A stretch of DNA of 35,241 nucleotides from a virus. Position 1 is the stretch's first letter. The number at the start of each line of letters is the position of its first letter. The DNA lies in IMG/VR virus record IMGVR_UViG_3300023257_000067, positions 1-35,241 of that record; one strand, given 5' to 3'. The translations under genes were made by a program, and so were the position numbers. Of the stretch, positions 2,345 through 32,556 are shown piece after piece. The notes under the pieces were generated by a model. That model made no database searches. It was given only the letters and a program-made list of their open reading frames with translations, and had not been told where the DNA came from.

Positions 2345-2373
2345 ATAGTATCATAGATTTTTTATTATGTCAA
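2345..2373 (-). promoter_or_regulatory. Early sigma70 promoter, extended -10
   Basis: TTGACA (2373-2368), 17 nt, TGA-TACTAT (-10 at 2350-2345). Reads into the structured leader RNA and the gene at 1870-2154. Confidence 0.85.
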
Positions 2374-2385
2374 GAAATTCTTTTT

Positions 2386-2413
2386 GTCAAGTATATGATG
2401 GTAAATACTTGAC
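2386..2413. repeat. 9-bp perfect inverted repeat
   Basis: GTCAAGTAT (2386-2394) and ATACTTGAC (2405-2413) separated by 10 nt, lying between tRNA-Ile and the promoter at 2345-2373. There is no T tract on the minus side, so an operator or RNA-processing stem is more likely than a terminator for the tRNAs. Confidence 0.5.
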
Positions 2414-2420
2414 TAATTTT

Positions 2421-2495
2421 TGGTACTCCTAGGAAGAATCGGACTTCTCGTCTATCAATTATAGGTTGATGGCTCTACCATTGAGCTATAGGAGT
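2421..2495 (-). tRNA. tRNA-Ile (TAT), C33
   Basis: Acceptor ACTCCTA/TAGGAGT, D arm with GCTCAATGGTAGAGC, anticodon stem ATCAA/TTGAT and loop CCTATAA, encoded CCA. Position 33 is C, not the near-universal U. TAT would read the AUA codon, which is frequent in AT-rich genes. Confidence 0.82.
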
Positions 2496-2496
2496 A

Positions 2497-2574
2497 TGGT
2501 GGGGTCAGACGGAATTGAACCGCCGCTGTCAAAGAATTTCACTCTTTCGCTCTACCTGACTGAGCTACAACCCC
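2497..2574 (-). tRNA. tRNA-Phe (GAA)
   Basis: Acceptor GGGGTTG/TGACCCC with wobble pairs at its inner end, anticodon stem AAAGA/TCTTT with loop GTGAAAT, T arm GGCGG TTCAATT CCGTC, encoded CCA. Confidence 0.9.
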
Positions 2575-2579
2575 TTGTA

Positions 2580-2932
2580 TGGTGGAAGTGCGGGGTATCG
2601 AACCCCGGTCTGTAAATATTCCATATTAATAATTTTTACATACATATTCTGAATATTGTTTTTCATCTATTTAAATATTATCAGACTTAATATCTAAAGG
2701 ATTATTCTGTTAAAGTTTCATTAACATCAGAACAGACTACCAATATTAACTATCCTGTTAGTCGTCGCCTTTATTAGATTCACAGGAAAAAATCTAACAA
2801 GACGTTAGCTATGCCGCTAAAGCGTAATTATAATCGTCAGCAATTACTTTAGTTTTCTTGTTTTACGAGTATCAAGAATTTCTCGGTATGTTATTAATAT
2901 TTCCCTATCCACATCGAATCCATTTCACCCCC
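2580..2932 (-). ncRNA. ssrA: tmRNA (transfer-messenger RNA)
   Basis: A 353-nt tmRNA. The 5' end GGGGGTGAAATGGATTCGA and the 3' end with T arm CGGGG TTCGATA CCCCG and acceptor strand CACTTCC-A-CCA form the tRNA-like domain. The tag reading frame at 2841-2809 (GCT GAC GAT TAT AAT TAC GCT TTA GCG GCA TAG) encodes ADDYNYALAA, ending in the ALAA degron of bacterial tags. Upstream of the resume codon is CTAAAGTAATT. It would rescue stalled ribosomes and mark their products for proteolysis. It sits directly behind tRNA-Ile/Phe in transcription order, downstream of a broken gene and the promoter at 3293-3321. Some phages are known to carry tmRNA genes; no introns or permutation are seen. Confidence 0.95.
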
Positions 2933-3265
2933 ATATTTATTATTTATATTATTAGAATATTTTTCAACAGGTTTACGACAAGTATGTAATAAAAAATATC
3001 GTTTTAACCATTTACCACTATACCATTCTGCTTTTTGTTTTTTATAACCATTTTACATTTCATGTGGATCACATATCTCAGCCTGTTTAAAAACATCTTT
3101 ACAAAATTTAATACATAATTTATCTAATATATCAGATATAAGCTCTTTTAAAGCCTATTTTGGATTTTCTTGAAATCCATCTTGTTTTAATCCCGGTTTT
3201 GATTTAGCAAAAACATATTGTGGTATACTAAATGGTTGAATATCCATTTCCATTTTTAAAATCAT
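2894..3265 (-). pseudogene. Gene with two in-frame stops
   Basis: A good start (AAAGGATATAATATG, ATG at 3265) opens 36 codons, then TAG at 3155-3157. The same frame continues 33 codons to TAA at 3053-3055, and then 52 more codons into the tmRNA. Codon use and composition look protein-like throughout (for example KELISDILDKLCIKFCKDVF and EWYSGKWLKRYFLLHTC). Both stops are one C-to-T change from a Gln codon. I call a pseudogene; readthrough is the alternative. No family recognised. Confidence 0.5.
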
Positions 3266-3292: not shown

Positions 3293-3321
3293 AAAGTATC
3301 ATAGATTTATTGTTATGTCAA
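3293..3321 (-). promoter_or_regulatory. Early sigma70 promoter, extended -10
   Basis: TTGACA (3321-3316), 17 nt, TGA-TACTTT (-10 at 3298-3293). Reads into the interrupted gene, the tmRNA and the Phe/Ile tRNAs. Its TGA is the stop codon of the upstream repeat protein. Confidence 0.83.
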
Positions 3322-3595
3322 GATATTCTTTTTTTGTTAAAAGTTCACCATCAATCCACCATTCTACAGCACCATTATTATATTCTACAGCTGGACCATT
3401 TGTACGATGTTGTTTTCCCATCCACCACCATTCTTTATGTTTACTATTATCAGACTCTATTGCTGGACCATCTATACGATGTCTTAAACCATTATACCAC
3501 CATTCTTCAAAACCATCATAAGGTGCATAAAACTGTTTTACTGCTGGACCATCTATACGATGTAACTGACCTTTATCATTTCTATATTCTATCAT
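3299..3595 (-). CDS. HRxDGPAV-repeat protein (copy 2)
   Basis: A 98-residue protein with three repeats: LHRIDGPAV, RHRIDGPAI and QHRTNGPAV, each followed by a Trp-rich strand (EEWWYNG, KEWWWMG, VEWWIDG). Same MORN-like family as copies at 363-674 and 32299-32556. It starts after an AAAGGA site at the end of a leader with an 8-bp hairpin, a leader type shared with copy 3. Its last residues (LDITINL) and stop are encoded by the downstream promoter. Confidence 0.75.
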   Translation of the reverse strand: MIEYRNDKGQLHRIDGPAVKQFYAPYDGFEEWWYNGLRHRIDGPAIESDNSKHKEWWWMGKQHRTNGPAVEYNNGAVEWWIDGELLTKKEYLDITINL

Positions 3596-3681: not shown

Positions 3682-4639
3682 TTATCCTTTTATTACAGCT
3701 AAAGGTTTAAGTTCAACCACTATATCAACAAGATCTTCTTGATTTTTCATAACAACTGAAATATCTTTATATGCACTTGGAGCTTCATCTAAATCTTTTT
3801 TATTTCTAATAGAATGAATAACACCTATATCATCTAACATACGTTGTTCATCTTCAAGATTTAACATTTTTCGAGCTTGTTTACGACCCATCATACGACC
3901 AGCTCCATGAGAACATGACATAAAACTTTCTTTATTACCTTTACCACTAACAATATAACTTGATGTGCCTTGTGAGCCTGGTATAATACCTTGTTCACCC
4001 AAACGAGCACTTGTAGCTCCTTTACGGTGAATCATTACATTAGTATTAAAATGATTTTCCATAACAGCATAATTATGTGCTATATTTATAAAGTTGTCAA
4101 ATTTTATATCATCTATAATATTAACAAATGCTTCTTTAACTCTATTCATCATAAATTTTCTATTAGCTAATGCAAAATCAACACAACAACGCATTTCAGT
4201 TAAATAATTTTGACCTTCTTCTGAATTAATTGGAAGAAAAGCTAATTGATGCTCTTTAGGTACAGAAGAACACCATACACTATTTAATTTAATAGCTAAT
4301 TTATTGTAATGATCAGCAACCTTATATCCTATGTTACGACTACCAGAGTGTATCATAATCCATACTCTACCATCATCACCTTTTTGTATTTCAATAAAAT
4401 GATTACCTCCACCTAATGTTCCAATTTGTTTTAAAGATGAATTATATTCATTTTCAATAACTGACCAACCCGAAAGTTTTTCATTATCAACATCATTTAA
4501 CCATTCATCTTGTTCTTTATTTTGATGATTAAATCCTACAGGAACAGATATTCTCATACCACCCATAATTTTTAAAATATCTTCATGATTTATATAAGTC
4601 AATGATGTTCTTAAAGCACACATGCCGCATCCAATATCA
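3682..4639 (-). CDS. rtcB: RtcB RNA ligase, 3' exon
   Basis: C-terminal 318 residues of R-type RNA ligase RtcB, which joins 2',3'-cyclic-phosphate or 3'-phosphate ends to 5'-OH ends with GTP and Mn2+. The exon opens with DIGCGM, containing the metal-binding Cys, then GTLGGGNHF, HSGSRNIG, RKGATSARLGEQGIIPGSQG and SCSHGAGR with the guanylylated His, and ends AVIKG as in the family. Joined to the 5' exon at 4882-5093 it gives 389 residues, close to the 408 of E. coli RtcB. In a phage with many tRNAs it probably repairs tRNAs cut by host defence nucleases; that role is inference. Confidence 0.93.
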
Positions 4640-4881
4640 CATTAATTCATATATTTCTATATGGAATGGACTATACCATCACTTGAATCATTGATGTAAT
4701 AGCATCTATTCAAGGCTCGCCGTATTATTATTTTTAAATAATCTGTATCCTTACCTATTAATATGATACAAGTCTCTGAACCATTTGAACATGTTTCCAT
4801 GAACTCTGGCTGCTGATTGTCTTATCATTTCTGACTTAGAGTTCCAGCAATTGAGCGAGTTTTACAGGGGCCGATTAATTA
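4640..4881 (-). other. Group I intron in rtcB
   Basis: This 242-nt segment interrupts rtcB between the GTT and GAT codons of AVG-V/D-IGCG. P1 pairs exon GGGGT with intron GCCCC, leaving a U-G pair at the 5' site, and the intron ends in G (4640). Core signatures in order: AATTGCTGGAACTC, AATCAGCAGCC, GGTTCAGAGACTTG (P7 region) and GGTATAGTCC near the end. Removing 4881-4640 restores the frame exactly. There is no ORF inside, so it must depend on another endonuclease for mobility, or be immobile. Likely subgroup IA by its motifs. Confidence 0.88.
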
Positions 4882-5093
4882 ACCCCTACTGCATTTGGCA
4901 CAACAACATCTTTAGTTGCCATAACACCGCCTATAGGCATACCGTATCCTTGATGCGAATCTGGCATTATAGCGATATGTTTAAATGCAAAAGGAAGATT
5001 GGCAAGATTTTTTGCTTGGTCTAAAGCACCATCTTCAATGTCATCCAACCATAATTTTATTGGTATTTTTTCTGTTGATATTACTTTATTCAT
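4882..5093 (-). CDS. rtcB: RtcB RNA ligase, 5' exon
   Basis: The first 70 codons and two bases of the next of rtcB, starting at 5093 behind AAAGGAGAATATT. It contains KHIAIMPDSHQGYGMPIG, the family's first metal-binding motif, and GGV..TKDVVVPNAVGV. Unspliced, the frame reads one Asn and stops at TAA inside the intron (4875-4877), giving a 72-residue dead product. See the 3' exon for function. Confidence 0.92.
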
Positions 5094-7619: not shown

Positions 7620-7648
7620 AAAGTATCATATATAAAATATTATGTCAA
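7620..7648 (-). promoter_or_regulatory. Early sigma70 promoter, extended -10
   Basis: TTGACA (7648-7643), 17 nt, TGA-TACTTT (7625-7620). Reads into the type II tRNA and the HNH gene. It is part of a roughly 50-bp imperfect direct repeat with 7691-7742. Confidence 0.83.
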
Positions 7649-7711: not shown

Positions 7712-7740
7712 AAAGTATCATATATTTTGTACTATGTCAA
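7712..7740 (-). promoter_or_regulatory. Early sigma70 promoter, extended -10
   Basis: TTGACA-type -35 (7740-7735), 17 nt, TGA-TACTTT (7717-7712). The original promoter of the now broken tRNA-Asn. Confidence 0.83.
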
Positions 7741-11931: not shown

Positions 11932-12396
11932 ATGACAAATAAATTATCAGAAGAATTTAATGTAACTAATATCATTGATGAAGATATCATAGAACATGTA
12001 ACACCACAAACAAATAATCCAGATAGTATTATAATGAACAATATAGATAATGCTAATACTGTATTAGATAAAATTATAACTGAATTAAATAGTGGTAATT
12101 TTTCAGCAAGATTAGCTGAAGTTGCTGGTCAACTTGTTAATGCTGTTACGACAGCGACAGAAAAAATCTATATGAAAGGGTTTAATATAGAAACTTTACA
12201 AATTAAAAAAAGTATGATACATTTAAAAGAAAGGGAATTAGAACTAAGAAAATTAATTAAAAATAGAGATAATAAAGAACCTAATGAAAAAATTATAGTA
12301 ACAGATAGAGAAACGATTTTAAAAATGTTGGAAAATAAAAAGGTCAAAAAATTAATAGATTGCACAAATGAAAGGAGTTTAGATAATGATGAATAA
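11932..12396 (+). CDS. Putative terminase small subunit (T4 gp16-like)
   Basis: A 154-residue helical protein. The central segment NSGNFSARLAEVAGQLVNAV, then TTATEKIYMKGFNIETLQIK, resembles in layout the core of T4 gp16 (an acidic N-terminus, then a helix pair around a conserved 'ARxxEVxxxLxxxxxxTxxxI' pattern). gp16-type rings bind DNA and regulate the gp17 motor. It heads the operon that contains terL, as in T4 where 16 precedes 17, but three kinase-module genes stand between. Similarity judged by eye, so moderate confidence. Its end overlaps the prkA start by 11 nt. Confidence 0.55.
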   Translation: MTNKLSEEFNVTNIIDEDIIEHVTPQTNNPDSIIMNNIDNANTVLDKIITELNSGNFSARLAEVAGQLVNAVTTATEKIYMKGFNIETLQIKKSMIHLKERELELRKLIKNRDNKEPNEKIIVTDRETILKMLENKKVKKLIDCTNERSLDNDE

Positions 12397-14320
12397 CGAC
12401 TTTAGACAAGTTATTTTGGATCAAAGAAAAAATGATATTAAAGAATTATGGCAAGGAAATTGTATTGATTATCTTTATAAGGTAAAAAAGAATCCTGAAA
12501 TATCACAATTATCAGCAGCAAGAATATATAATATTTTAGCATCACAGGGGTCATCAGATCTTGATGATACATTAAAAATTACTGGATATGAAGATTTGGT
12601 AAAATATGATTTCTTTGATAATAAGATTTTTGGTACTTATGAACCTATCCATGATATTATGAGATTTCTTAAAGCTTCTGCTCGTAGAACAGAAACAGGT
12701 AAAAGAATATTAATACTTGTTGGTCCTGTTGGTTCTGGAAAGAGTACAATAGCTAATCTAATTAAAAAGGGATTAGAAAACGATACTGTTCCTAAATATA
12801 CTATCAAAGGTTGTCCTATACATGAAGAACCTTTACATCTTATTCCTGAAAAGGATAGACCTTGGTGGGAAGATCAACTCAATATTAAAATTGAAGGTAC
12901 TTTATGTCCTGTATGTCAAATGAGATTAAAAAATGTTCGATGGGAAGATGTTGAAGTTGAGCAAATTAAATTCTCAGAACAACAAAGAACTGGTATTGGT
13001 ACATTTCAGCCAAGTGATCCAAAGTCTCAGGATGTTTCAGAACTTATTGGCAGAATTGATATGAGTAAAATGACACGTTATGGTGAAACTGATCCTAGGG
13101 CATATCAGTTTAATGGTGAACTACAAGTAGCTAATGGTGGTCTTATTGAATACATTGAAATCCTTAAAGCTGATATTAAATTTCATTATGTTTTAATTAC
13201 AGCTGCCCAGGAACAAGTTATTAAGGCACCGGGATTTCCACAGATGTATATTGATACACTCATTTTAGCACATACAAATCAAACTGAATATGATACATTT
13301 AAATCTGATAAGAAAAATGAGGCATTACATGATAGAATGTATCCAATAAAAGTGCCATGGAATCTTAAAATAGATGATGAAGTTAAAATCTATGAAAAAA
13401 TGATTGCAGAGAGTGATTTCAGAAATATTCATATAGCACCACATACATTGAAGATAGCTGCAGAATTTGCAATATTAACAAGACTTACACCATCAACAAA
13501 AGTATCATCACTTATTGAAAAGATGAAAATCTATAATGGTGAAATTACTGAATCTATGAGAAAAGAAGATGTTGATGTTAAATCTCTTAGATCAGAGGGT
13601 AAGGCTCAAGATGAAGGAATGTCAGGTATTTCACCAAGATTTATTATAAACGCTTTAAATATAGCTCTTGGTATGAAAGAGGACAAAAAATGTATAAATC
13701 CTATTGATATTATAAGAGCATTAATGTCAAATTTTAATCATCATATAGGTATCAGTACAGAAGATAAAGATAGATATATTGGAATGATTACAAGTGGTAA
13801 AGATTCTGTAAGTTCTGAATATAAAGACATTGCCAAAAAAGAAGTTAATAAAGCATTTTTGGAAGCATATGAAGAACAAGCTCAGTCTTTATTTGACAAT
13901 TATATCTTAAATGCAGAAGCGTTTTGTAAAAAAGATAAACTTATTGATTCAATAACAGGTGAATATAGTAATCCTGATGAAAAACTTATGCGACAAATTG
14001 AAGAATATATAGGAGTTCCTGTAAATTCTAAAAATACGTTTAGAAATGGTATCTTTGTATATAAAGCATCTAAACTTGAAAAAAATGAACCATTTACATT
14101 TAATGATTATGAACCATTAAAAGAAGCTATTGAAAAGAAATTAATATCAGACCTTAAAAATATAGTATCATTGACTATAGCTGATAAATCAAATGATAGT
14201 AAAAAAGTTAAAGCAAGACGAAAGAGTGCTATTAACAGACTTAAAAAGATGGGATATTGTGATGAATGTGCAAGTGTTCTTTTATCATTTGTCGGTGAAA
14301 CAATTAGACGTGAGGGATAA
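12386..14320 (+). CDS. prkA: PrkA-type AAA+ serine protein kinase
   Basis: A 644-residue protein, full length for the family (E. coli YeaG 644, B. subtilis PrkA 631). AAA-type Walker A GPVGSGKST at residues 113-121, then IKGCPIHEEPLHLIPE, GIGTFQPSDPKSQDVSELIG, DPRAYQFNGEL, ILAHTNQTEYDTF, KMIAESD..IHIAPHTLK, DEGMSGISPRF and the C-terminal kinase-like domain with NPDEKLMRQIEEYIG. It is closer to the Bacillus PrkA pattern than to YeaG. A CPIH...CPVC pair (about residues 145-180) may bind metal. In bacteria PrkA works with a DUF444 protein and SpoVR in starvation and stress responses, and both partners follow here. Starts at the first of two ATGs behind AAAGGAG. Confidence 0.93.
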   Translation: MMNNDFRQVILDQRKNDIKELWQGNCIDYLYKVKKNPEISQLSAARIYNILASQGSSDLDDTLKITGYEDLVKYDFFDNKIFGTYEPIHDIMRFLKASARRTETGKRILILVGPVGSGKSTIANLIKKGLENDTVPKYTIKGCPIHEEPLHLIPEKDRPWWEDQLNIKIEGTLCPVCQMRLKNVRWEDVEVEQIKFSEQQRTGIGTFQPSDPKSQDVSELIGRIDMSKMTRYGETDPRAYQFNGELQVANGGLIEYIEILKADIKFHYVLITAAQEQVIKAPGFPQMYIDTLILAHTNQTEYDTFKSDKKNEALHDRMYPIKVPWNLKIDDEVKIYEKMIAESDFRNIHIAPHTLKIAAEFAILTRLTPSTKVSSLIEKMKIYNGEITESMRKEDVDVKSLRSEGKAQDEGMSGISPRFIINALNIALGMKEDKKCINPIDIIRALMSNFNHHIGISTEDKDRYIGMITSGKDSVSSEYKDIAKKEVNKAFLEAYEEQAQSLFDNYILNAEAFCKKDKLIDSITGEYSNPDEKLMRQIEEYIGVPVNSKNTFRNGIFVYKASKLEKNEPFTFNDYEPLKEAIEKKLISDLKNIVSLTIADKSNDSKKVKARRKSAINRLKKMGYCDECASVLLSFVGETIRREG

Positions 14321-14622
14321 TTTTAAACAATTATGTAAACCACTTAACTTTGAGGATGCTATTAATAAAGGACAACTTTATAGAATAGCATTTTCAAAGG
14401 AAAATATAGATAAGTTAAAATTAATTTTAACTAAACTAAACTGTAAAAGAATTAAATTTAAAACCAACATGGAAATGTAAATGTGGTTGGAAATCAACAT
14501 GGTATATAAATAAAAATAAATTAACATTAAATCAATATATACCATTACTTGTAACAGATATGACTTCAAAAAATATTAAATGGTATTGTCCAAATTGTAA
14601 AAAAATTAACAGAATAGTTTAA
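14310..14622 (+). pseudogene. Zinc-ribbon gene with a frame break
   Basis: Frame 1, from a possible GTG at 14310, reads NFKQLCKPLNFEDAINKGQL, then YRIAFSKENIDKLKLILTKL, and stops at 14480. A second frame, open from about 14440, reads LKPTWKCKCGWKSTWYINKN and ends WYCPNCKKINRIV at 14622, a clear two-knuckle zinc ribbon but without a start codon. A shift near AACTGTAAAAG would join them into one protein of about 100 residues. Pseudogene, sequencing error or programmed shift cannot be separated here. Confidence 0.5.
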
Positions 14623-14633
14623 AGGTTATAAAT

Positions 14634-14864
14634 TTGAAACTTATTGATAATATTAACAATTTTTTCAAAAAAAAATTCAGAATTGTTAATACAAATGATT
14701 TATTTAAAATTCAATCTAAAATGTGGTATGCCTCATGGGAAGATGAGGCATACCGTTTGAATGGTACTAATGTATTTAGTTTATATGAAAGTGATAGATG
14801 GCTTGATATTAGAGAAGTATATGAAAAATTATCTAACAATAGAATAACATATAATAAAGAGTAG
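14634..14864 (+). CDS. Unknown protein in the kinase operon (76 aa)
   Basis: Starts with TTG at 14634, 8 nt after AAAGG; no ATG fits. Basic amphipathic N-terminus (MKLIDNINNFFKKKFRIV), then an aromatic, acidic region (WYASWEDEAYRLNG, ESDRWLDIREVYEKL). Lies between prkA and the DUF444 gene; family not recognised. Confidence 0.55.
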   Translation: MKLIDNINNFFKKKFRIVNTNDLFKIQSKMWYASWEDEAYRLNGTNVFSLYESDRWLDIREVYEKLSNNRITYNKE

Positions 14865-14871
14865 GTATAAT

Positions 14872-16167
14872 ATGACAATAGTTCATCATGAAAATTGGGA
14901 TTTATCAAATAAAGGAAAAAAGGATATTGAAAGACATCAACAAAAAATTGATAATGTCATTCGTAAAAATATTAAGAATGTTATAGGTGAAGAAACTATA
15001 ATCACTAAAAGACATGGTAAAAAAATAAAAATTCCAATAAGAGGTCTTGAAGATTATAAGTTTATATATGGTTTTGATAATAAAAAATTAGGTGGTATAG
15101 GTCAAGGCAAAGGTAAAGAAGGTGATGTATTTAAAAAATATCCTGTTAATAATGGGCCTGGTAATATAGATGGCTCTGATTATATTGAAACAGAAATTGA
15201 TATTAATTATATAATAGATTTAATGTTTGAGGATTTAGGATTACCATATATTGAAGAAAGAACTAAAATTGAGCAAGTAATTCCAAAAGGTTGGAAATTT
15301 AATTCTATAACTAAAACTGGTATTAAATCAAGAATACATAAACATAAAACATTAAAAGAATCAATTAAAAGAACTTTGATGTATGTTAAAGAAATTATTA
15401 GTGAAACTGGATGTACTGAAGATATTGCTAATAAAGCTCTTATACAATCTAAAGGTGATTTAGATAAAGCTATTAATATTGTTAATAATAATGAAGTGTG
15501 TGATGATATACAAGATATGATTTTTATTGAAGATGATGATTTAAGATATAAACAGATAGAAGAAGATGTTGAATATCATAGTAATGCAGTTGTTATCGCG
15601 ATGATTGATACATCAGGGTCTATGGACATTAATAAAAAATATCTTGCTCGATCTATGTTGTTTTGGCTTACCGAATTTCTTAAAAAGACTTATAAACATG
15701 TTAATATTAAATTCATTACACATACAACTGATGCTAAGGTAGTTGATGAAGAAGTATTTTTTAAAAAAGGTGAATCGGGTGGGACTAACTGTCATACAGC
15801 ATTTGATTTAGCTGACCATCTTATAGAAACTGAATTTCCTGTTAATGAATGGAATGTCTATTGCGTATATGTAGGTGATGGTGAAGATTGGGAATCTGAA
15901 AAAACAATAAATTCTGTTAATAAACTTCTTAACAGAAAAATAAATATGTTAGCTTATTGTGAAACCAATCCTGATGATATAGGTGGATATCCATCATATA
16001 GAACTTTATTAGATAGTTTTAGAAATCGTTTTAATTTCAAAATAAGAACTGAAAATGGTAATAATTATTATAAAAATGATAAAAAACATTTTTTGGCATG
16101 TAGGATTGATAAGAAAGAGGATATATATCCTTGTTTAAAACATATTTTATTTACAAAGGATCAATAA
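14872..16167 (+). CDS. DUF444 (YhbH/YeaH) von Willebrand-type protein with UBA-like insert
   Basis: 431 residues. The N-terminal half has the family pattern (NWDLSNKGKKDIERHQQKI, KIKIPIRGLEDYKF, GIGQGKG, DYIETEIDI), and the C-terminal half is a vWA domain with MIDAS motif DTSGS (residues 246-250), FITHTTDAKVVDEE, KKGESGGTNC and a glycine/aspartate-rich strand GDGEDW. Bacterial YhbH is partner and substrate context of PrkA. Compared with YhbH, residues about 171-207 (VKEIISETGCTEDIANKALI then QSKGDLDKAINIVNN) look like an inserted UBA/TS-N three-helix unit. Its stop overlaps the spoVR start (TAATG). Confidence 0.9.
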   Translation: MTIVHHENWDLSNKGKKDIERHQQKIDNVIRKNIKNVIGEETIITKRHGKKIKIPIRGLEDYKFIYGFDNKKLGGIGQGKGKEGDVFKKYPVNNGPGNIDGSDYIETEIDINYIIDLMFEDLGLPYIEERTKIEQVIPKGWKFNSITKTGIKSRIHKHKTLKESIKRTLMYVKEIISETGCTEDIANKALIQSKGDLDKAINIVNNNEVCDDIQDMIFIEDDDLRYKQIEEDVEYHSNAVVIAMIDTSGSMDINKKYLARSMLFWLTEFLKKTYKHVNIKFITHTTDAKVVDEEVFFKKGESGGTNCHTAFDLADHLIETEFPVNEWNVYCVYVGDGEDWESEKTINSVNKLLNRKINMLAYCETNPDDIGGYPSYRTLLDSFRNRFNFKIRTENGNNYYKNDKKHFLACRIDKKEDIYPCLKHILFTKDQ

Positions 16168-17645
16168 TGAATAAATCAGATTTACATAGACTTATAAAAA
16201 TAGAAGACCGTATTAAAGAAATTATGGTACAAAAAGGCTTAAAATTTGATGAAGTTGAATTTGATATTGTACCGCCAAAAAAGATGATTGAAATAATGGC
16301 GTATAATTCACCATCTAATATAAGTAACTGGAAATTTGGCAGAAATTATGAAAGACTTAAAACTATTTATGATAACGTATCATCACATAGTTTACCATAT
16401 GAGGTTGTAATTAATTCAGATCCACACAGAGCATATTTGATGAATAACAATACTTTAGCAGTTCAAGCTCTTGTAATATCACATGTTTATGGGCATGTTA
16501 ATTTTTTTACTGAAAATAATCTATTTAAAAATTCAAGGCGTGATATTATTAATATATTAAGTTCAGCCAATAAAAGATTTATAGAATATGAAAAACTTTA
16601 TGGTACTGATGATATTGAAAAAATTATAGATGCTGGTCATGCCTTACAATTACACACTAATATTTTTGATAATGATGAAACAGAAGATGAAAAAAGACTT
16701 AGAATTTATAATCATCAAAAAAAAATGGATAGACCTATCAGCTCTGAATTTAGTGATATCATTATAGATGATAAACATAATAAATATAACATAGAAGCAT
16801 ATAATAACAAGTTATGGAAAAGTCTTAAAGCTATATCACCTGTTGAACCTACAGAAGATATTTTAAGATTTGTTATAGATAATTCAAAGATATTAGATGA
16901 TTGGCAAAAAGATATTCTTGAAGTATTAAGAATAGAGGGTCAATACTATTGGCCTAATATAAAAACAAAATATATGAATGAAGGATATGCTGTATATACA
17001 CATGAACAGATTATGGACCAATTATTTAGAGAAGGTCATTTAACAGCATCTGAACATGGTCAATATAATTATAGTAATTCACTTGTAAAAGCTTTTAATA
17101 GAGAAACCATAAATCCTTATCTTATTGGTTCTGTAATGTGGTATGATATAAAGGATAGATGGGATAAAGGTCGGTATGGCAGTGATTGGAATGAATGTGA
17201 TAATGTAAAAGAAAGGGAATTATGGGACACCAAAGAAATGAATGGTGCTAAAAAAGTAGATGAAGTAATGCGATCATATATGGATTGGTTCTTTATGAAT
17301 GAATTTTTAACACCAGATATTATTGATAAATCAGATTTATATGTATATGAAATAATTCAGAAAAATCATTCAGTTGAATATGTTAGGACGGGTTATACAA
17401 TAGAAGAAGTACGGGAAATGATTATATCAAGTTTTGCTAATAAATCAATTCCAAAAATATCTATTATTGATAGTAATTATAATAAAAACGGTACTTTATT
17501 AATGAATCATAGTTTCAGTACCTTACCACTTAATAAAATATATGCTAAAGAAACAATGAAGCATATTAAAAATATTTGGGGTAGTGATATACATTTAAGA
17601 ACAAAAAATTCAGACGGTACAAAAGATGTGTTTTTAAAAATATAG
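16167..17645 (+). CDS. SpoVR family protein
   Basis: 492 residues, started at 16167 (AAAGGATCAATAATG) rather than at the in-frame ATG at 16131 inside the previous gene. SpoVR signatures: GLKFDEVEFDIVPPKKMIEI, the HVYGHVNFFTENNLF metal-like motif, NEGYAVYTHEQIM, and NPYLIGSVMWYDIKDRWDKG. B. subtilis SpoVR affects spore cortex formation and E. coli YcgB shares the YeaG-YeaH regulon; the biochemistry is unknown. Third member of the kinase module, directly before terL. Confidence 0.92.
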   Translation: MNKSDLHRLIKIEDRIKEIMVQKGLKFDEVEFDIVPPKKMIEIMAYNSPSNISNWKFGRNYERLKTIYDNVSSHSLPYEVVINSDPHRAYLMNNNTLAVQALVISHVYGHVNFFTENNLFKNSRRDIINILSSANKRFIEYEKLYGTDDIEKIIDAGHALQLHTNIFDNDETEDEKRLRIYNHQKKMDRPISSEFSDIIIDDKHNKYNIEAYNNKLWKSLKAISPVEPTEDILRFVIDNSKILDDWQKDILEVLRIEGQYYWPNIKTKYMNEGYAVYTHEQIMDQLFREGHLTASEHGQYNYSNSLVKAFNRETINPYLIGSVMWYDIKDRWDKGRYGSDWNECDNVKERELWDTKEMNGAKKVDEVMRSYMDWFFMNEFLTPDIIDKSDLYVYEIIQKNHSVEYVRTGYTIEEVREMIISSFANKSIPKISIIDSNYNKNGTLLMNHSFSTLPLNKIYAKETMKHIKNIWGSDIHLRTKNSDGTKDVFLKI

Positions 17646-23280: not shown

Positions 23281-24153
23281 TCAAAAAAATAAATTCAAAT
23301 TAGACTTGTTGACAGAATTCAACAAGTCTTTTTTATTCATAGGATCTAATAATATCTCAATCTTGGCTGTGAAATATTTTTTAATCATCTTATCATAATC
23401 TATCTGAACAATTTCATTAAATTCTTTTGGCCATCTTAAAAAAGAAACACTTTCAAAACCAAATGCATTTTTCTTTACATAAATTATTTTAGCTTTACTC
23501 TTATTATGTATATCCTCATATTTATCAACTATATCCAGATGCTTAAGCATTTCTCTGTAATTATAAACACCTTTAACATGCCAAGGTGTACCCTTTCTAG
23601 GACCAGTAGGTGATATATATTTATTGATATTATTAACACTTGTATTGACAGATATTTCTTCTGGATATACCTCTTTTAATTCTTTCTTATATCTTTCTAT
23701 AATATTTATTAATTCATCATCAGATGTATCTTTTAAAATAAGATTCATTATATTTTTAAGTCTTGGTCTTACTGCTTCTGGTGTCTCTGATCTAATAATT
23801 TCAAGTCCTGTTGTTTTGAGTTTATCTACCGGCGCCCCTTCTTCATCAACACACCAAAATGAATATTTCTTCTTTTTAACAAATAATGTTGACTTAGCTA
23901 CAATTTCTTGCTTAAATGTAATTCTAAAATCAGTTACATTAGAGTTATAGCATTTTCTTTGTATTTCTCTATAAGATCTTGAATCAACATTATCTTCTAT
24001 TACAGAAGATATTTTTCTAATATAATCAATAATTTTTTCTTCATCTAAAGATCTCCATTTGTCTCCTATATGCTTATCAAGAAACGATCCGAGATTAATA
24101 AAAAGTGAATCAGTGTCAACTCCGTCAAATGTAGAGGATGTAATCCTGTACAT
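23281..24153 (-). CDS. Family B DNA polymerase, C-terminal part (gp43B-like)
   Basis: 290 residues as an ORF. It opens with the catalytic motif C, GVDTDSLF, and continues like the palm/thumb of T4 gp43: KQEIVAKSTLFVKKKKYSFW, KTTGLEIIRSETPEAVRPRL, SPTGPRKGTPWHVKGVYNYR, FGFESVSFLRWP. The ATG at 24153 lies in a hairpin and is out of frame with the better start at 24181 (MTRGNKSVEDVQDYILYI then TGA), whose end YILYI is what should precede the DTDS motif. A +1 shift at ATT-TGA-C would join them. Partner of 24399-26165. Confidence 0.85.
   Translation of the reverse strand: MYRITSSTFDGVDTDSLFINLGSFLDKHIGDKWRSLDEEKIIDYIRKISSVIEDNVDSRSYREIQRKCYNSNVTDFRITFKQEIVAKSTLFVKKKKYSFWCVDEEGAPVDKLKTTGLEIIRSETPEAVRPRLKNIMNLILKDTSDDELINIIERYKKELKEVYPEEISVNTSVNNINKYISPTGPRKGTPWHVKGVYNYREMLKHLDIVDKYEDIHNKSKAKIIYVKKNAFGFESVSFLRWPKEFNEIVQIDYDKMIKKYFTAKIEILLDPMNKKDLLNSVNKSNLNLFF
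23302..23335 (+). terminator. Intrinsic terminator of the packaging operon
   Basis: Stem AGACTTGTTG/CAACAAGTCT, 8-nt loop, then TTTTTT. It ends plus-strand transcription but is located inside the last codons of the opposing polymerase gene. Confidence 0.85.
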
Positions 24154-24181
24154 CCTCTACACTCTTATTACCTCTTGTCAT
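24125..24181 (-). CDS. Alternative N-terminus of the polymerase C-part
   Basis: ATG at 24181 behind AAGGATAAATAAT reads MTRGNKSVEDVQDYILYI and stops at TGA (24125-24127). Skipping one base there enters the polymerase frame as ..YI-DGVDTDS. A perfect 12-bp inverted repeat (24131-24160) lies in this coding stretch, just before the stop. Likely the true start of the C-part if frameshifting or a repair of the frame occurs. Confidence 0.55.
   Translation of the reverse strand: MTRGNKSVEDVQDYILYI
24131..24160 (-). repeat. Perfect 12-bp hairpin at the polymerase frame break
   Basis: GTAGAGGATGTA and TACATCCTCTAC with a 6-nt loop. It contains the ATG at 24153 and ends a few bases before the TGA where the frame changes. 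Confidence 0.7.
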
Positions 24182-24194
24182 ATTATTTATCCTT

Positions 24195-24397
24195 TTATAA
24201 TTTAAATTCTTTTTTAATAGTTTTTAACCATTCTATATCTGTTAAAGTTTCGATATCAGTTATTCTTTATCTTTATATATTATATCATGTTTCTCAAAAA
24301 TACTAATCAATTCTCTTTTAACACTTTCTTTAAATACCTCCTGTATATGCATTTCAAAAAAATACCAAACATCATTTATTAATTGTTTATTTTTCAA
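24195..24397 (-). pseudogene. Small ORF between polymerase parts, frame broken
   Basis: TTG at 24397 (behind GGAGAGTTATAA) reads MKNKQLINDVWYFFEMHIQE and KHDIIYKDKE, stopping at 24260. The next frame continues ITDIETLTDIEWLKTIKKEF to a stop at 24195. One shift gives a protein of about 68 residues. It separates the two polymerase genes; family not recognised. Confidence 0.45.
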
Positions 24398-24398
24398 A

Positions 24399-26165
24399 TT
24401 ATAACTCTCCTTTAATTTTATTAATTATATCAATTAGTTCTTGACTTGGTTCATTAAGCAATTCATTTACAAATCGTTCACCATTTTTAATGGTCTGACG
24501 ACCACATGATGTAATGGCTTCTGCAATATTTATGTTAAAATATCTACTATAAGGTACTGACATTATACCAAAAAATCCATTTAATACTAATTTTAAAGCT
24601 AATTGTAATGAATGATATTGCTTAATTTTATCCTTAGTATTTTTTAAATCATTATCTCTTAAAACTGGTAATGATTTTTTCATTTTAATCATTTTCTTTT
24701 TAACTTTAATTCTTTTCTTAAATACTGTTTTTTCAACATCAGCTACTACTCCCATTTTACTATTTGAAAAAACAGATCCACATGGGGCAACTGATAACAA
24801 ACGGTTTTTAATAGCTTTATTGAATATTTCAAGACTTTTATTTTTAAAGTCTATTATTTTAGAGCCTTTCATTAAGTTAAAAGATGGGTAACATTTTGTT
24901 TTAGTAAAAGTCATAATTTCATTTTCTGTAAATCCTAACACCCTACCATAATATGTTTCAGGTGACATATTTAATGTTATTATAGCTGTAGGATAAGACG
25001 ATGCTATATCAAGATCAACAACCCACATATGTTTACCCTTCTGTGGTTCTTTAACATATGCCGCCTCAAATCCTTCTTGAACACCGCCAGTAAAATGAGG
25101 AGCACATAACCCTCTCCTTCTATAATATGTGAGCATTAACCCTTCTATTAACTGTGTTAATGTTCTATAATTCTTCATAGGTGATTTACATAATAAAGAT
25201 AGGGTCTGAACAAGATTAATATACTTTAATTTATCATCTATTTGATGTACTCTATAAGCATCTATAATATTATAATCAACATATTTTTCCCAATTGTTAT
25301 TATAAAGACCTCTTAAATCTTCATATTCAGAGTAATCAAGTTTACCAACACCGAGTTCAAAATTTGAAACAAAATCAAGACTATATCTTTCAAGTCTATT
25401 AGGTGAATACCATTTATATAAATCAATATAATCAAGTATAGATACACCAGCTATATCAACATTCATGTCTTTACCATCTTTTGACATCCATGTTTTTACA
25501 ATACTTATAGGTGATAATTTTTTATATATTGCAGTATCATTACCAAATAAGTTTTTTGACCTATTGATAATATATGGTATATCAAATCCATTTATATACC
25601 AGCCACTTATAGTATCACATGGACTTTTTGACATAAAATTAAAAAATGACATTAACAACATTTTATCATTTTTACATTCTATATAATTAATAAAATCAAC
25701 ATTTTTATATTTACCGTTATATGGTTTAGTACCAAATGTGGTGGTTATACCCGTTATATTATTATGGACAGATATAAGTGTTATAGGGTCATCAGCATTA
25801 TTTATATCTGGAAATTTACCACTATCACTATGAGTTTCAATATCAATAACATAATTTTTAAGTTTTGGCACATCCATCAATTCATCGTCTATACCATAAT
25901 ACCTTTCAGCTAAAAATTGTATCTCAGGACGTACTCTATCTTCATATAAATCTTTTTGATCTTTACATGCACTATAGTAATCAGAATATGATTTAAATTC
26001 TATTTTCTTAGCATTAAATCCATCTGTTGTTTTAAAGTCACCATCTTTTTTTCTTTTAAAAGCATACGGTACATATGGTATGTTAGTATAAAGATTTTCA
26101 CCTTTTAATTGTTCCCACAAATGTATTGTATTAGTATTTATTGAATAATAAACATTCTTAAACAT
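24399..26165 (-). CDS. Family B DNA polymerase, N-terminal part (gp43A-like)
   Basis: 588 residues. 3'-5' exonuclease with VIDIETHSD (DIE at 108-110), a second motif around DTISGWYINGFDIPYI and third YNIIDAYRVHQID. Then polymerase motif A WVVDLDIASSYPTAI and motif B LKLVLNGFFGIMS. It ends NGERFVNELLNEPSQELIDI.., shortly before where motif C should be; that motif is in 23281-24153. Split gene 43 is known in some T4-like phages. The two parts would have to assemble into one enzyme. Confidence 0.92.
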   Translation of the reverse strand: MFKNVYYSINTNTIHLWEQLKGENLYTNIPYVPYAFKRKKDGDFKTTDGFNAKKIEFKSYSDYYSACKDQKDLYEDRVRPEIQFLAERYYGIDDELMDVPKLKNYVIDIETHSDSGKFPDINNADDPITLISVHNNITGITTTFGTKPYNGKYKNVDFINYIECKNDKMLLMSFFNFMSKSPCDTISGWYINGFDIPYIINRSKNLFGNDTAIYKKLSPISIVKTWMSKDGKDMNVDIAGVSILDYIDLYKWYSPNRLERYSLDFVSNFELGVGKLDYSEYEDLRGLYNNNWEKYVDYNIIDAYRVHQIDDKLKYINLVQTLSLLCKSPMKNYRTLTQLIEGLMLTYYRRRGLCAPHFTGGVQEGFEAAYVKEPQKGKHMWVVDLDIASSYPTAIITLNMSPETYYGRVLGFTENEIMTFTKTKCYPSFNLMKGSKIIDFKNKSLEIFNKAIKNRLLSVAPCGSVFSNSKMGVVADVEKTVFKKRIKVKKKMIKMKKSLPVLRDNDLKNTKDKIKQYHSLQLALKLVLNGFFGIMSVPYSRYFNINIAEAITSCGRQTIKNGERFVNELLNEPSQELIDIINKIKGEL

Positions 26166-27275: not shown

Positions 27276-28388
27276 TTATCTACCAACATCTTTTAAATAT
27301 ATTTCCTTTGCTTTATCCCATGATATGCCAATCATATCATCATAAAACAAAATATCTTTGTTCTGTCTATTAGTTTTAATAACATTTTCTATTCTTTTTT
27401 TAGCATATCGTTCTTTCCACAATTCTGTTAATGATTCAACAGAGTTATCAAATTTTCTTTCACCCGGATTATCAACTTTTTTACTTAAAAATTTATTAGT
27501 ATCATTAAATAATCCACAAAAATAAACCCCTCTTGAAAAATTATTAATAGGTGGTTTAACTTTCAATTGCTTATAAACAAATTGTAATAATCTTGTTTTA
27601 GGATGACTTTTAGTTTGTAATTCTTTAACTTGTTTTAAATAATTTTTGTTTATCCATTTTCTAATTTCTTTATATACATTATCTGATGGTTCTAATGGAA
27701 TTTTACCTTCTGTTGATTTGCATTTTCTCCAATATTTTAATCTGTTATATTGAGATAGACCACCGTAAATACTTGTTGTACTTATACTTACAAGTTTATC
27801 ACCATATCGTTTATCCCATGCATTTTCAACAACATTAGATGCTGTTAATAATGCTATTAATTTACCACCGACATAATTATATCCTAATGGTTGTGTTGGT
27901 ACTATAGATGAACCCATTGCAGTATGCTTTAACATTTTTTCTTCAAGTCTTTGCTTTATAGTCCAACCAATATAATTATCTCTGCCACCTAAAGAAATAA
28001 AATCAGAACCTACAGATATAACACCTAAATATTTTTTAGTTATTTTATCTTGAATATAAAATCTAAGAAGTCTTCCAGGACTTGCATTCCAATACAAGGT
28101 AGATGAAAATATTCTTAATATTGTCCATATCTTATTAGTTATTGGTGTAGATGCTTGTATAACCTCTGGTTCTAATTTAAGATAATCATCATAATTTTCT
28201 GGAATCCATAAAGAATTTTTTATTTCCCATATTTTATTTAAATCTTTATTAGACCATTTCTTTAAATTAATTTCTTCCCATTTACGATAAAGTGTATATT
28301 CTTCAACAGGCATCATAGACATTTTTTTAAAATTTTCTTCTATTAAATTTTTCATATTATCATATTTCATCTTCAGATAATTTTTCAT
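27276..28388 (-). CDS. DUF4338/DruA-like protein
   Basis: 370 residues. The centre has the block TLYWNASPGRLLRFYIQD, LGVISVGSDFISLGGRDNYI-GW, MGSSIVPTQPLGYNYVGGKL-IALL and TTSIYGGLSQYNRLKYWRKC. This order (RD.xIGW, then PT......GGKL) is that of DUF4338 proteins, which occur in large phages and, as DruA, in the Druantia defence system. The activity in phages is unknown to me. Its start overlaps the end of the 28360-28611 gene. Confidence 0.62.
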   Translation of the reverse strand: MKNYLKMKYDNMKNLIEENFKKMSMMPVEEYTLYRKWEEINLKKWSNKDLNKIWEIKNSLWIPENYDDYLKLEPEVIQASTPITNKIWTILRIFSSTLYWNASPGRLLRFYIQDKITKKYLGVISVGSDFISLGGRDNYIGWTIKQRLEEKMLKHTAMGSSIVPTQPLGYNYVGGKLIALLTASNVVENAWDKRYGDKLVSISTTSIYGGLSQYNRLKYWRKCKSTEGKIPLEPSDNVYKEIRKWINKNYLKQVKELQTKSHPKTRLLQFVYKQLKVKPPINNFSRGVYFCGLFNDTNKFLSKKVDNPGERKFDNSVESLTELWKERYAKKRIENVIKTNRQNKDILFYDDMIGISWDKAKEIYLKDVGR

Positions 28389-31933: not shown

Positions 31934-32299
31934 TTAAATTCTTTCAAATTGTCTACATACTATAATTTTTACATGATCACCTTGTTTACAATCATTTATA
32001 CAAACAGCACATTTTTTATTAACATTTTTCCATTTACATTTTTTTGTAGATGCCTTTTTTCTATTAGCAGCACCAAGAATATATAATTTATCAACTTTAA
32101 GTTTTATAAGAATATCATTTTCCTTATTTTTAATACTTTTAGATTTTAAAAAAGCGTTTAAAGTTATATAACATTTAATATTATCAACATCTGACTTCTT
32201 TTTAATTCTCACAGGATTTTTAATTTTCATGTTGCTTATAGTAGCCATAAACCACTTTGATTTACATCTGTACACAATCTTACCTTTTATTATTTTCAT
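31934..32299 (-). CDS. Unknown basic Cys-containing protein (121 aa)
   Basis: Start at 32299 (MKIIKGKIVYRCKSKWFMAT), overlapping the previous stop (TAATG), behind GGGAGATA. Strongly basic; the C-terminal third has KKCKWKNVNKKCAVCINDCK with four Cys, a likely zinc site, and the end VKIIVCRQFERI. No family recognised. Confidence 0.62.
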   Translation of the reverse strand: MKIIKGKIVYRCKSKWFMATISNMKIKNPVRIKKKSDVDNIKCYITLNAFLKSKSIKNKENDILIKLKVDKLYILGAANRKKASTKKCKWKNVNKKCAVCINDCKQGDHVKIIVCRQFERI

Positions 32300-32556
32300 T
32301 ATATCTCCCACATTTTGTTAGGTATTATTGAATTTATTCTTTGTTTATTAAATTTAATTCTATAATCATTAAATTCATGTTCTGTATATTGTTTACCTTT
32401 TATAAACCATAACATAGAACCATCAGCGTATTCTACTGCTGGGCCATTTGTACGATGTCGCATACCCATATTATACCATTCTTTAATACCATCTGCCCAT
32501 TCTATTGCTGGTCCATTTGTTCTATGCAATAACCCTTGTTTATGATATATTTTCAT
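32299..32556 (-). CDS. HRxDGPAV-repeat protein (copy 3)
   Basis: 85 residues: two repeats, LHRTNGPAIEWADGIKEWYN and RHRTNGPAVEYADGSMLWFI, then a different tail (EHEFNDYRIKFNKQRINSII). Same MORN-like family as copies 1 and 2. AAAGGATATAAT before the ATG; upstream is leader module 2, as for copy 2. Confidence 0.75.
   Translation of the reverse strand: MKIYHKQGLLHRTNGPAIEWADGIKEWYNMGMRHRTNGPAVEYADGSMLWFIKGKQYTEHEFNDYRIKFNKQRINSIIPNKMWEI

Follow-up and report, generated by a model that had tools for sequence, protein, structure and literature searches.

A tailed, T4-like phage represented by a 35-kb IMG/VR fragment (35,241 nt; this whole stretch is referred to below as the window) carries a complete one-piece tmRNA (ssrA) gene, which has diverged far from its bacterial counterparts in sequence while keeping their fold and their tag peptide. 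Judging from the sequence, in which every defining tmRNA feature that could be tested was found, the encoded RNA is very probably functional.

A tmRNA gene in a T4-like phage fragment

The original prediction had placed a tmRNA with the tag ADDYNYALAA at positions 2580-2932, and ARAGORN returned the same coordinates and tag on the minus strand, with the coding part at nucleotides 92-124. A search with the covariance model of the tmRNA family, which had been named as the check to make, gave a full-length match (RF00023, model positions 1-374 of 374, not truncated; 144.6 bits for a gathering score of 47, E = 5.8e-57). The tRNA-like ends, the encoded CCA and the tag frame ending in ALAA that had been read from the letters are likewise all present according to Rfam, the written-out helices and ARAGORN. 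The gene and its central elements are:

2580..2932, minus strand: one-piece tmRNA (ssrA), 353 nt, 3' end formed by the encoded CCA (ARAGORN, Rfam RF00023, pair counts)
2842..2846, minus strand: UAAUU directly 5' of the resume codon, with an A four bases ahead of that codon as the counterpart of E. coli A86 (alignment columns)
2809..2841, minus strand: tag frame GCU GAC GAU UAU AAU UAC GCU UUA GCG GCA UAG, encoding ADDYNYALAA and a stop (ARAGORN coding part 92-124)

An identical 353-nt copy is present in a second IMG/VR contig, L005 (40 kb). L005 and the window share 99.94% identity over 12.6 kb and by this measure are two assemblies of one virus, not separate lineages; L005 confirms the sequence. 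The GC content of the tmRNA is 32% and that of the phage 27%. Among the genes of the window are those for a T4-type large terminase, a DnaB-type helicase, a family B DNA polymerase, a head-tail adaptor and a dUTPase, and 18 tRNA genes in the window plus 9 further ones in L005 bring the known tRNA genes to 27. Neither the window nor L005, the 40-kb contig that overlaps it, yielded an SmpB match (PF01668), and the two together leave the phage genome incomplete; the phage tmRNA probably makes use of host SmpB.

Other parts of the window hold genes of separate interest. PrkA kinase, DUF444 (YeaH) and SpoVR genes, a bacterial stress trio, lie consecutively at 12386-17645 of this phage, and PrkA relatives among phage records are few and mostly from Thermus phages. 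The phage also encodes, at 27276-28388, a protein matching the Druantia DruA domain (PF14236, E = 2.3e-21), and three small proteins of HRTDGPAVEYADGS-EWW-like repeats, apparently paralogues, are encoded at 363-674, 3299-3595 and 32299-32556.

The prediction had called phage tmRNAs known but uncommon, and the published census agrees, with 402 of 18,146 phage genomes (2.3%) carrying one (PMC9004378). They have been listed for Bacillus phage G and mycobacteriophages (PMC4131195) and described in huge phages, some of which also encode SmpB (PMC7162821). The gene described here is a well-supported further example of something already known: as in Bacillus phage G, the mycobacteriophages Bxz1 and Wildcat, Melnitz and the huge phages, it lies in a phage genome, often in such cases together with tRNAs (PMC4131195, PMC9004378, PMC7162821), whereas its tag is of Desulfobacterota type and, unlike the tmRNA of methylophage Melnitz, it is made in one piece. 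A DNA search of the tmRNA against 50,697 phage records gave no match, and no tmRNA scored above threshold in the terminase relatives (54-62% identity); these relatives, mostly fragments, do not support the tmRNA as a fixed trait of the phage group.

Two other phage contigs yielded tmRNAs of unusual form. The 175-kb phage L254 (IMGVR_UViG_3300027675_000004) has one at 1503-1895 with a predicted 28-residue tag, ADENTRLLAEANAIVAHVFADAPVVATI, that lacks the usual LAA end, and no SmpB was found in that contig. The 163-kb phage contig L255 has a probable permuted (two-piece) tmRNA at 1202-1593 with the predicted tag ANDEQFLMAA.

Conservation of the tmRNA fold

We wrote out the helices on the phage RNA itself and counted pairs in an alignment of 32 sequences, made up of the phage tmRNA, one tmRNA from another phage and 30 from Desulfobacterota. 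As the structure was drawn on the phage row, that row is bound to pair; what is informative is that the bacterial rows form pairs at these sites with different letters. The structure comprises an acceptor stem of 7 bp with a G3-U70 pair, H2 (three blocks, 20 bp), pseudoknot 1, a tag-end hairpin, H5, pseudoknots 2-4 and the T-arm, the pseudoknots being as follows:

2855..2885, minus strand: pseudoknot 1 (CGAG/CUCG + UUCUUG/CAAGAA), tmRNA positions 48-78
2753..2797, minus strand: pseudoknot 2 (UUAGAUU/AAUCUAA + UCCUGU/ACAGGA), tmRNA positions 136-180; second helix paired in 95.3% of cells
2706..2749, minus strand: pseudoknot 3 (UUAAUAU/AUGUUAA + UCUGUU/AACAGA), tmRNA positions 184-227; second helix 90.1% paired
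2648..2698, minus strand: pseudoknot 4 (UUUAGAUAUU/AAUAUUUAAA + UCUGA/UCAGA), tmRNA positions 235-285; second helix 100% paired

On the formation of the pseudoknots the original prediction had staked itself beforehand, and pseudoknots 1-4, helices 1 and 2, H5 and the T-arm all pair. The tRNA-like domain has 7/7 acceptor pairs, 5/5 T-arm pairs and the 3' CCA, and the alanine identity pair G3-U70 is GU in all 32 aligned sequences, the phage included. Standard pairs occupy 84.5% of the alignment cells, compared with 39-48% when the partners are slid by 1-3 columns, and changes on both sides occur in 58 of the 92 pairs (shuffled mean 32.5; none of 500 shuffles as high). The second helix of pseudoknot 1 is weaker, with 52-84% of cells paired, because the alignment is poor there. 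When the loops of each pseudoknot were shuffled alone in the single phage sequence, the result was not significant (18-47% of shuffles), so the support for the pseudoknots is comparative.

The phage tmRNA is at most 67% identical to any same-tag bacterial tmRNA sampled. Across the 73 pairs that form in at least 70% of the bacterial rows, it leaves 48 unchanged, alters 4 on one side and alters 21 on both, the two-sided changes being mostly from G-C to A-U. Divergence to this extent with the fold kept points to selection on function. Compared with the one-piece tmRNAs of Desulfobacterota (RF00023), the phage RNA shares the full set of domains, ADDYNYALAA, G3-U70, CCA and the resume region, but it is AT-rich as well as divergent, has UAG rather than UAA after the tag and lies in a phage tRNA array.

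Tag peptide and host phylum

A comparison of the tag and resume region with bacterial tmRNAs, also proposed at the outset, showed the same tag, written with different codons, and an invariant A. In four codons of the tag frame, those of three alanines and of the stop, the phage departs from the bacterial consensus with the amino acids unchanged, so that it is the peptide that is conserved and not the DNA. Alignment columns T87, A88 and A89 are invariant in the 32 sequences, A88 being the conserved A before the resume codon; the role of, and requirement for, A86 upstream of the resume codon have been described (PMC2481249).

A degenerate search for the tag in 84,980 genomes gave at least 118 matches, whose affiliation we read from the record titles. 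Among the 118 matches listed, ARAGORN called a tmRNA at 103, and about 107 were titled as Desulfo-, Delta- or Thermodesulfobacteriota; the other matches listed came from vaguely titled Proteobacteria bins, from a KSB1 bin and from one Competibacteraceae bin in which ARAGORN called no tmRNA. Going by these titles, ADDYNYALAA is, among the matches listed, a tag almost confined to Desulfobacterota, and the earlier suggestion that the tag could tell the host group held at this level. Desulfobacterota tmRNAs sampled regardless of their tag mostly belong to the tag family A-[DN]-[DN]-Y-x-Y-A-L-A-A. From the tag we therefore assign the host, with fair confidence, to Desulfobacterota, at phylum level and no finer, and the virus probably infects bacteria of the sulfate-reducing type.

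A finer host rank was sought in a tree of 105 tmRNAs and dropped. The phage, whose composition is skewed, forms a long branch there that could not be placed, and all bacterial sequences in the tree had been selected for the same tag, so we claim no order or family. Compared with 395 Desulfobacterota genomes, the window DNA gave only short, low-identity matches at the level of genes, and DNA similarity to the window revealed no prophage or clear spacer in them.

Among 2.9 million viral contigs, one RNA-phage contig, L084 (IMGVR_UViG_3300035593_000956; 3927 nt), was the sole place outside this virus where the exact tag occurred. L084 has an RNA-phage gene order, with frames of 408, 116 and 654 aa resembling maturation, coat and replicase proteins, and its positions 1-124 correspond to nucleotides 21-145 of a Desulfobacteraceae-type tmRNA, being 87.7% identical to L121 with the tag and stop included. 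The stretch that follows the tag is in no other viral contig, and L084 is either an assembly chimera or a true RNA recombinant.

Transcription unit and the interrupted gene upstream

A phage promoter motif, TTGACA-N12-TATGATACT, has 22 matches (≤3 mismatches) where 4.3 are expected, a number that none of 100 shuffles reached. Two exact copies delimit the unit that contains the tmRNA:

3295..3321, minus strand: promoter motif, exact, ahead of the interrupted gene (motif scan)
2933..3265, minus strand: interrupted gene, its ATG behind AAGAAAGGA as ribosome-binding site (reading-frame inspection)
2939..2967, minus strand: candidate promoter TTGAAA-17-AATAAT, weak, 6 nt ahead of tmRNA nucleotide 1 (sequence scan)
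2497..2574, minus strand: tRNA-Phe(gaa), 5 nt after the tmRNA (ARAGORN, RF00005)
2421..2495, minus strand: tRNA-Ile(tat), 1 nt after tRNA-Phe (ARAGORN, RF00005)
2383..2416, minus strand: 12-nt inverted repeat just past tRNA-Ile, with no T-run after it
2347..2373, minus strand: next promoter motif, exact, starting the following unit (motif scan)
359-385, 2347-2373, 3295-3321, 7622-7648 and 7714-7740, minus strand: exact motif copies ahead of minus-strand genes (motif scan)

Between the motifs at 3321-3295 and 2373-2347 thus lie the interrupted gene, the tmRNA, tRNA-Phe, tRNA-Ile and the inverted repeat, the last of which is a possible end of the unit. In the region of the weak candidate promoter, promoter-like sequences were overall not above chance. 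The original prediction had put the tmRNA at the end of a transcript that begins with a gene containing two stops; the gene, its stops and an exact promoter ahead of it are there, but the tmRNA is followed by tRNA-Phe and tRNA-Ile and so is not the last element.

In the interrupted gene, a TAG occurs at 3157-3155 (codon 37) and a TAA at 3055-3053 (codon 71); from there the frame stays open into the tmRNA as far as 2896, and the stretch from the TAA to the tmRNA contains no start codon. Codon-use scores of its three segments (0.40, 0.32 and 0.37) are coding-like throughout, the reference median being 0.36 in the true frame and the 95th percentile -0.05 in wrong frames. No homologues were found in phages, viral contigs or PHROGs. 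On the most economical account, the arrival of the tmRNA truncated a gene that is now decaying; it may be such a pseudogene or else something that is read through. We had also considered rtcB as the interrupted gene meant by the prediction and rejected it, since rtcB is broken by a group I intron and the gene with two stops beside the tmRNA fits better.

rtcB and its group I intron

The RNA ligase gene rtcB lies on the same strand, 750 nt from the tmRNA:

3682..5093, minus strand: rtcB, exons 5093-4882 and 4639-3682 (PF01139 on both exons; exon boundaries)
4640..4881, minus strand: group I intron, 242 nt, between GTAGGGGT and TGATATTGG (RF00028, 66.9 bits, gathering score 50, E = 4.2e-17)

Rfam missed the intron in scans of the whole window and of 4 kb and matched it in a 301-base scan. 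It has U-G at the 5' splice site (AGGGGU pairing with GGCCCCU) and a terminal G, and its removal joins GV and DIGCGMC in one frame, restoring the conserved GVDIGCGMC. The intron is compact, has no reading frame and sits at the codon before the DIGCGMC motif. In the rtcB of Bacillus phage CM1, that codon is likewise interrupted by a related intron (74.8% identity over the first part), but there a 495-nt ORF lies between the exons. In four other viral rtcB genes (L020, L033, L035 and L046), an intein-like sequence follows VDIG, within a few codons of where the window has its intron. To judge from these sequences, the active-site motif of viral rtcB looks like an insertion hot spot.

The family B DNA polymerase gene at 23281-26165 is also split, into two frames (phrog_262 profile positions 9-564 and 577-837), by an insert of ~250-330 nt adjoining the DTDS motif; Rfam gave no intron match in this insert.

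In E. coli, tmRNA is the most frequent RNA target of RtcB (PMC9650030), and since RtcB repairs tmRNA there, we regard the rtcB neighbourhood as the most interesting part of the arrangement. As in the E. coli RtcAB system, the ligase is RtcB, for which tmRNA is the top target in that bacterium; in the window, by contrast, both partners are phage genes, and repair of the one by the other would be an extension from E. coli. No rtcA or rtcR was seen. Phage tRNAs have been proposed to counter host defences that cut tRNAs (PMC10264068), and the presence of the tmRNA, 27 tRNA genes and rtcB in one region would fit a supply-and-repair kit for translation RNAs.

Proposed function and rival explanations

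From the gene, its structure, its tag and its neighbourhood, we infer expression, charging, a partnership with SmpB and a benefit to the phage. We consider it likely that this is a functional phage tmRNA, co-transcribed, processed by the host, alanylated and used with host SmpB to sustain translation in infection. It would be transcribed from the phage promoter together with the upstream interrupted gene and the downstream tRNA-Phe and tRNA-Ile, and released by host RNase P and 3'-end nucleases, after which host AlaRS would load it with alanine by way of G3-U70. Together with SmpB and EF-Tu of the host it would then free stalled ribosomes, adding ADDYNYALAA to the nascent chains to mark them for host proteases. 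The benefit would most likely lie in sustained translation at a stage of infection when host RNAs disappear or are cleaved, the tmRNA belonging to an extensive set of translation RNAs that the phage brings along and that includes the repair ligase RtcB. A more specific version, in which tmRNA and rtcB form a module that keeps ribosome rescue alive under attack, is rather doubtful: the diverged tmRNA would be poorly recognised by host nucleases or SmpB-like defence proteins, RtcB would reseal cut tmRNA and tRNA, and RNA-cutting defences would fail to shut down translation.

The original prediction had also suggested that the tmRNA might act on the interrupted gene. It is release factors that recognise stop codons; the ribosomes that tmRNA enters have an empty A-site. 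As tmRNA serves ribosomes without a stop codon there, action on a gene with ordinary in-frame TAG and TAA stops is unsupported. That this is the main role of the tmRNA is highly improbable, even though the two share a transcription unit and processing of the tmRNA 5' end would leave a stop-less stretch, from 3053 to the tmRNA start at 2932: the two preceding stops would end translation normally, translation could not restart at a start codon behind them, and no relatives with the arrangement were found. It is less credible still that a bacterial tmRNA was joined to a phage contig in assembly. Metagenome contigs can be chimeric, but the same arrangement in a second IMG/VR contig already contradicts this, and the RNA is close to the phage in GC content and unlike any bacterial tmRNA sampled (67%).

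Two further readings accept the gene and dispute its use. As a decoy or inhibitor, the RNA would bind host SmpB or tag host proteins and so disturb host ribosome rescue; the TLD-only RNA of mycobacteriophage DS6A is thought to inhibit tmRNA, perhaps by titrating SmpB (PMC4131195), and tagging of host proteins for recycling has been proposed for phage Melnitz (PMC9004378). Unlike the DS6A RNA, however, the one described here has an mRNA-like domain, a resume region and four pseudoknots that are complete and appear to be under selection, none of which an SmpB sponge needs, and we hold this reading to be quite unlikely. We judge it slightly less probable again that the gene is a host tmRNA acquired by chance, for instance by imprecise excision at an ssrA attachment site, and now functionless. 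Prophages are known to use ssrA as an attachment site (a point taken up in PMC9004378), and the broken upstream gene, whose frame enters the tmRNA, looks as if the tmRNA had landed there; but the tmRNA is of full length rather than an attachment-site fragment, it sits inside the tRNA array of a T4-like phage, and strong divergence with 21 two-sided pair changes and an unchanged tag needs long selection.

A functional tmRNA used by the phage remains our preferred reading. The gene shows that a phage tmRNA can drift to two-thirds identity with every helix and tag residue kept, an argument for phage tmRNAs being put to use rather than simply carried along. For this virus, known from metagenomes alone, the tag also indicates a probable host phylum, and the closeness of rtcB suggests a connection of phage tmRNAs with RNA-cutting defences that can be put to the test.
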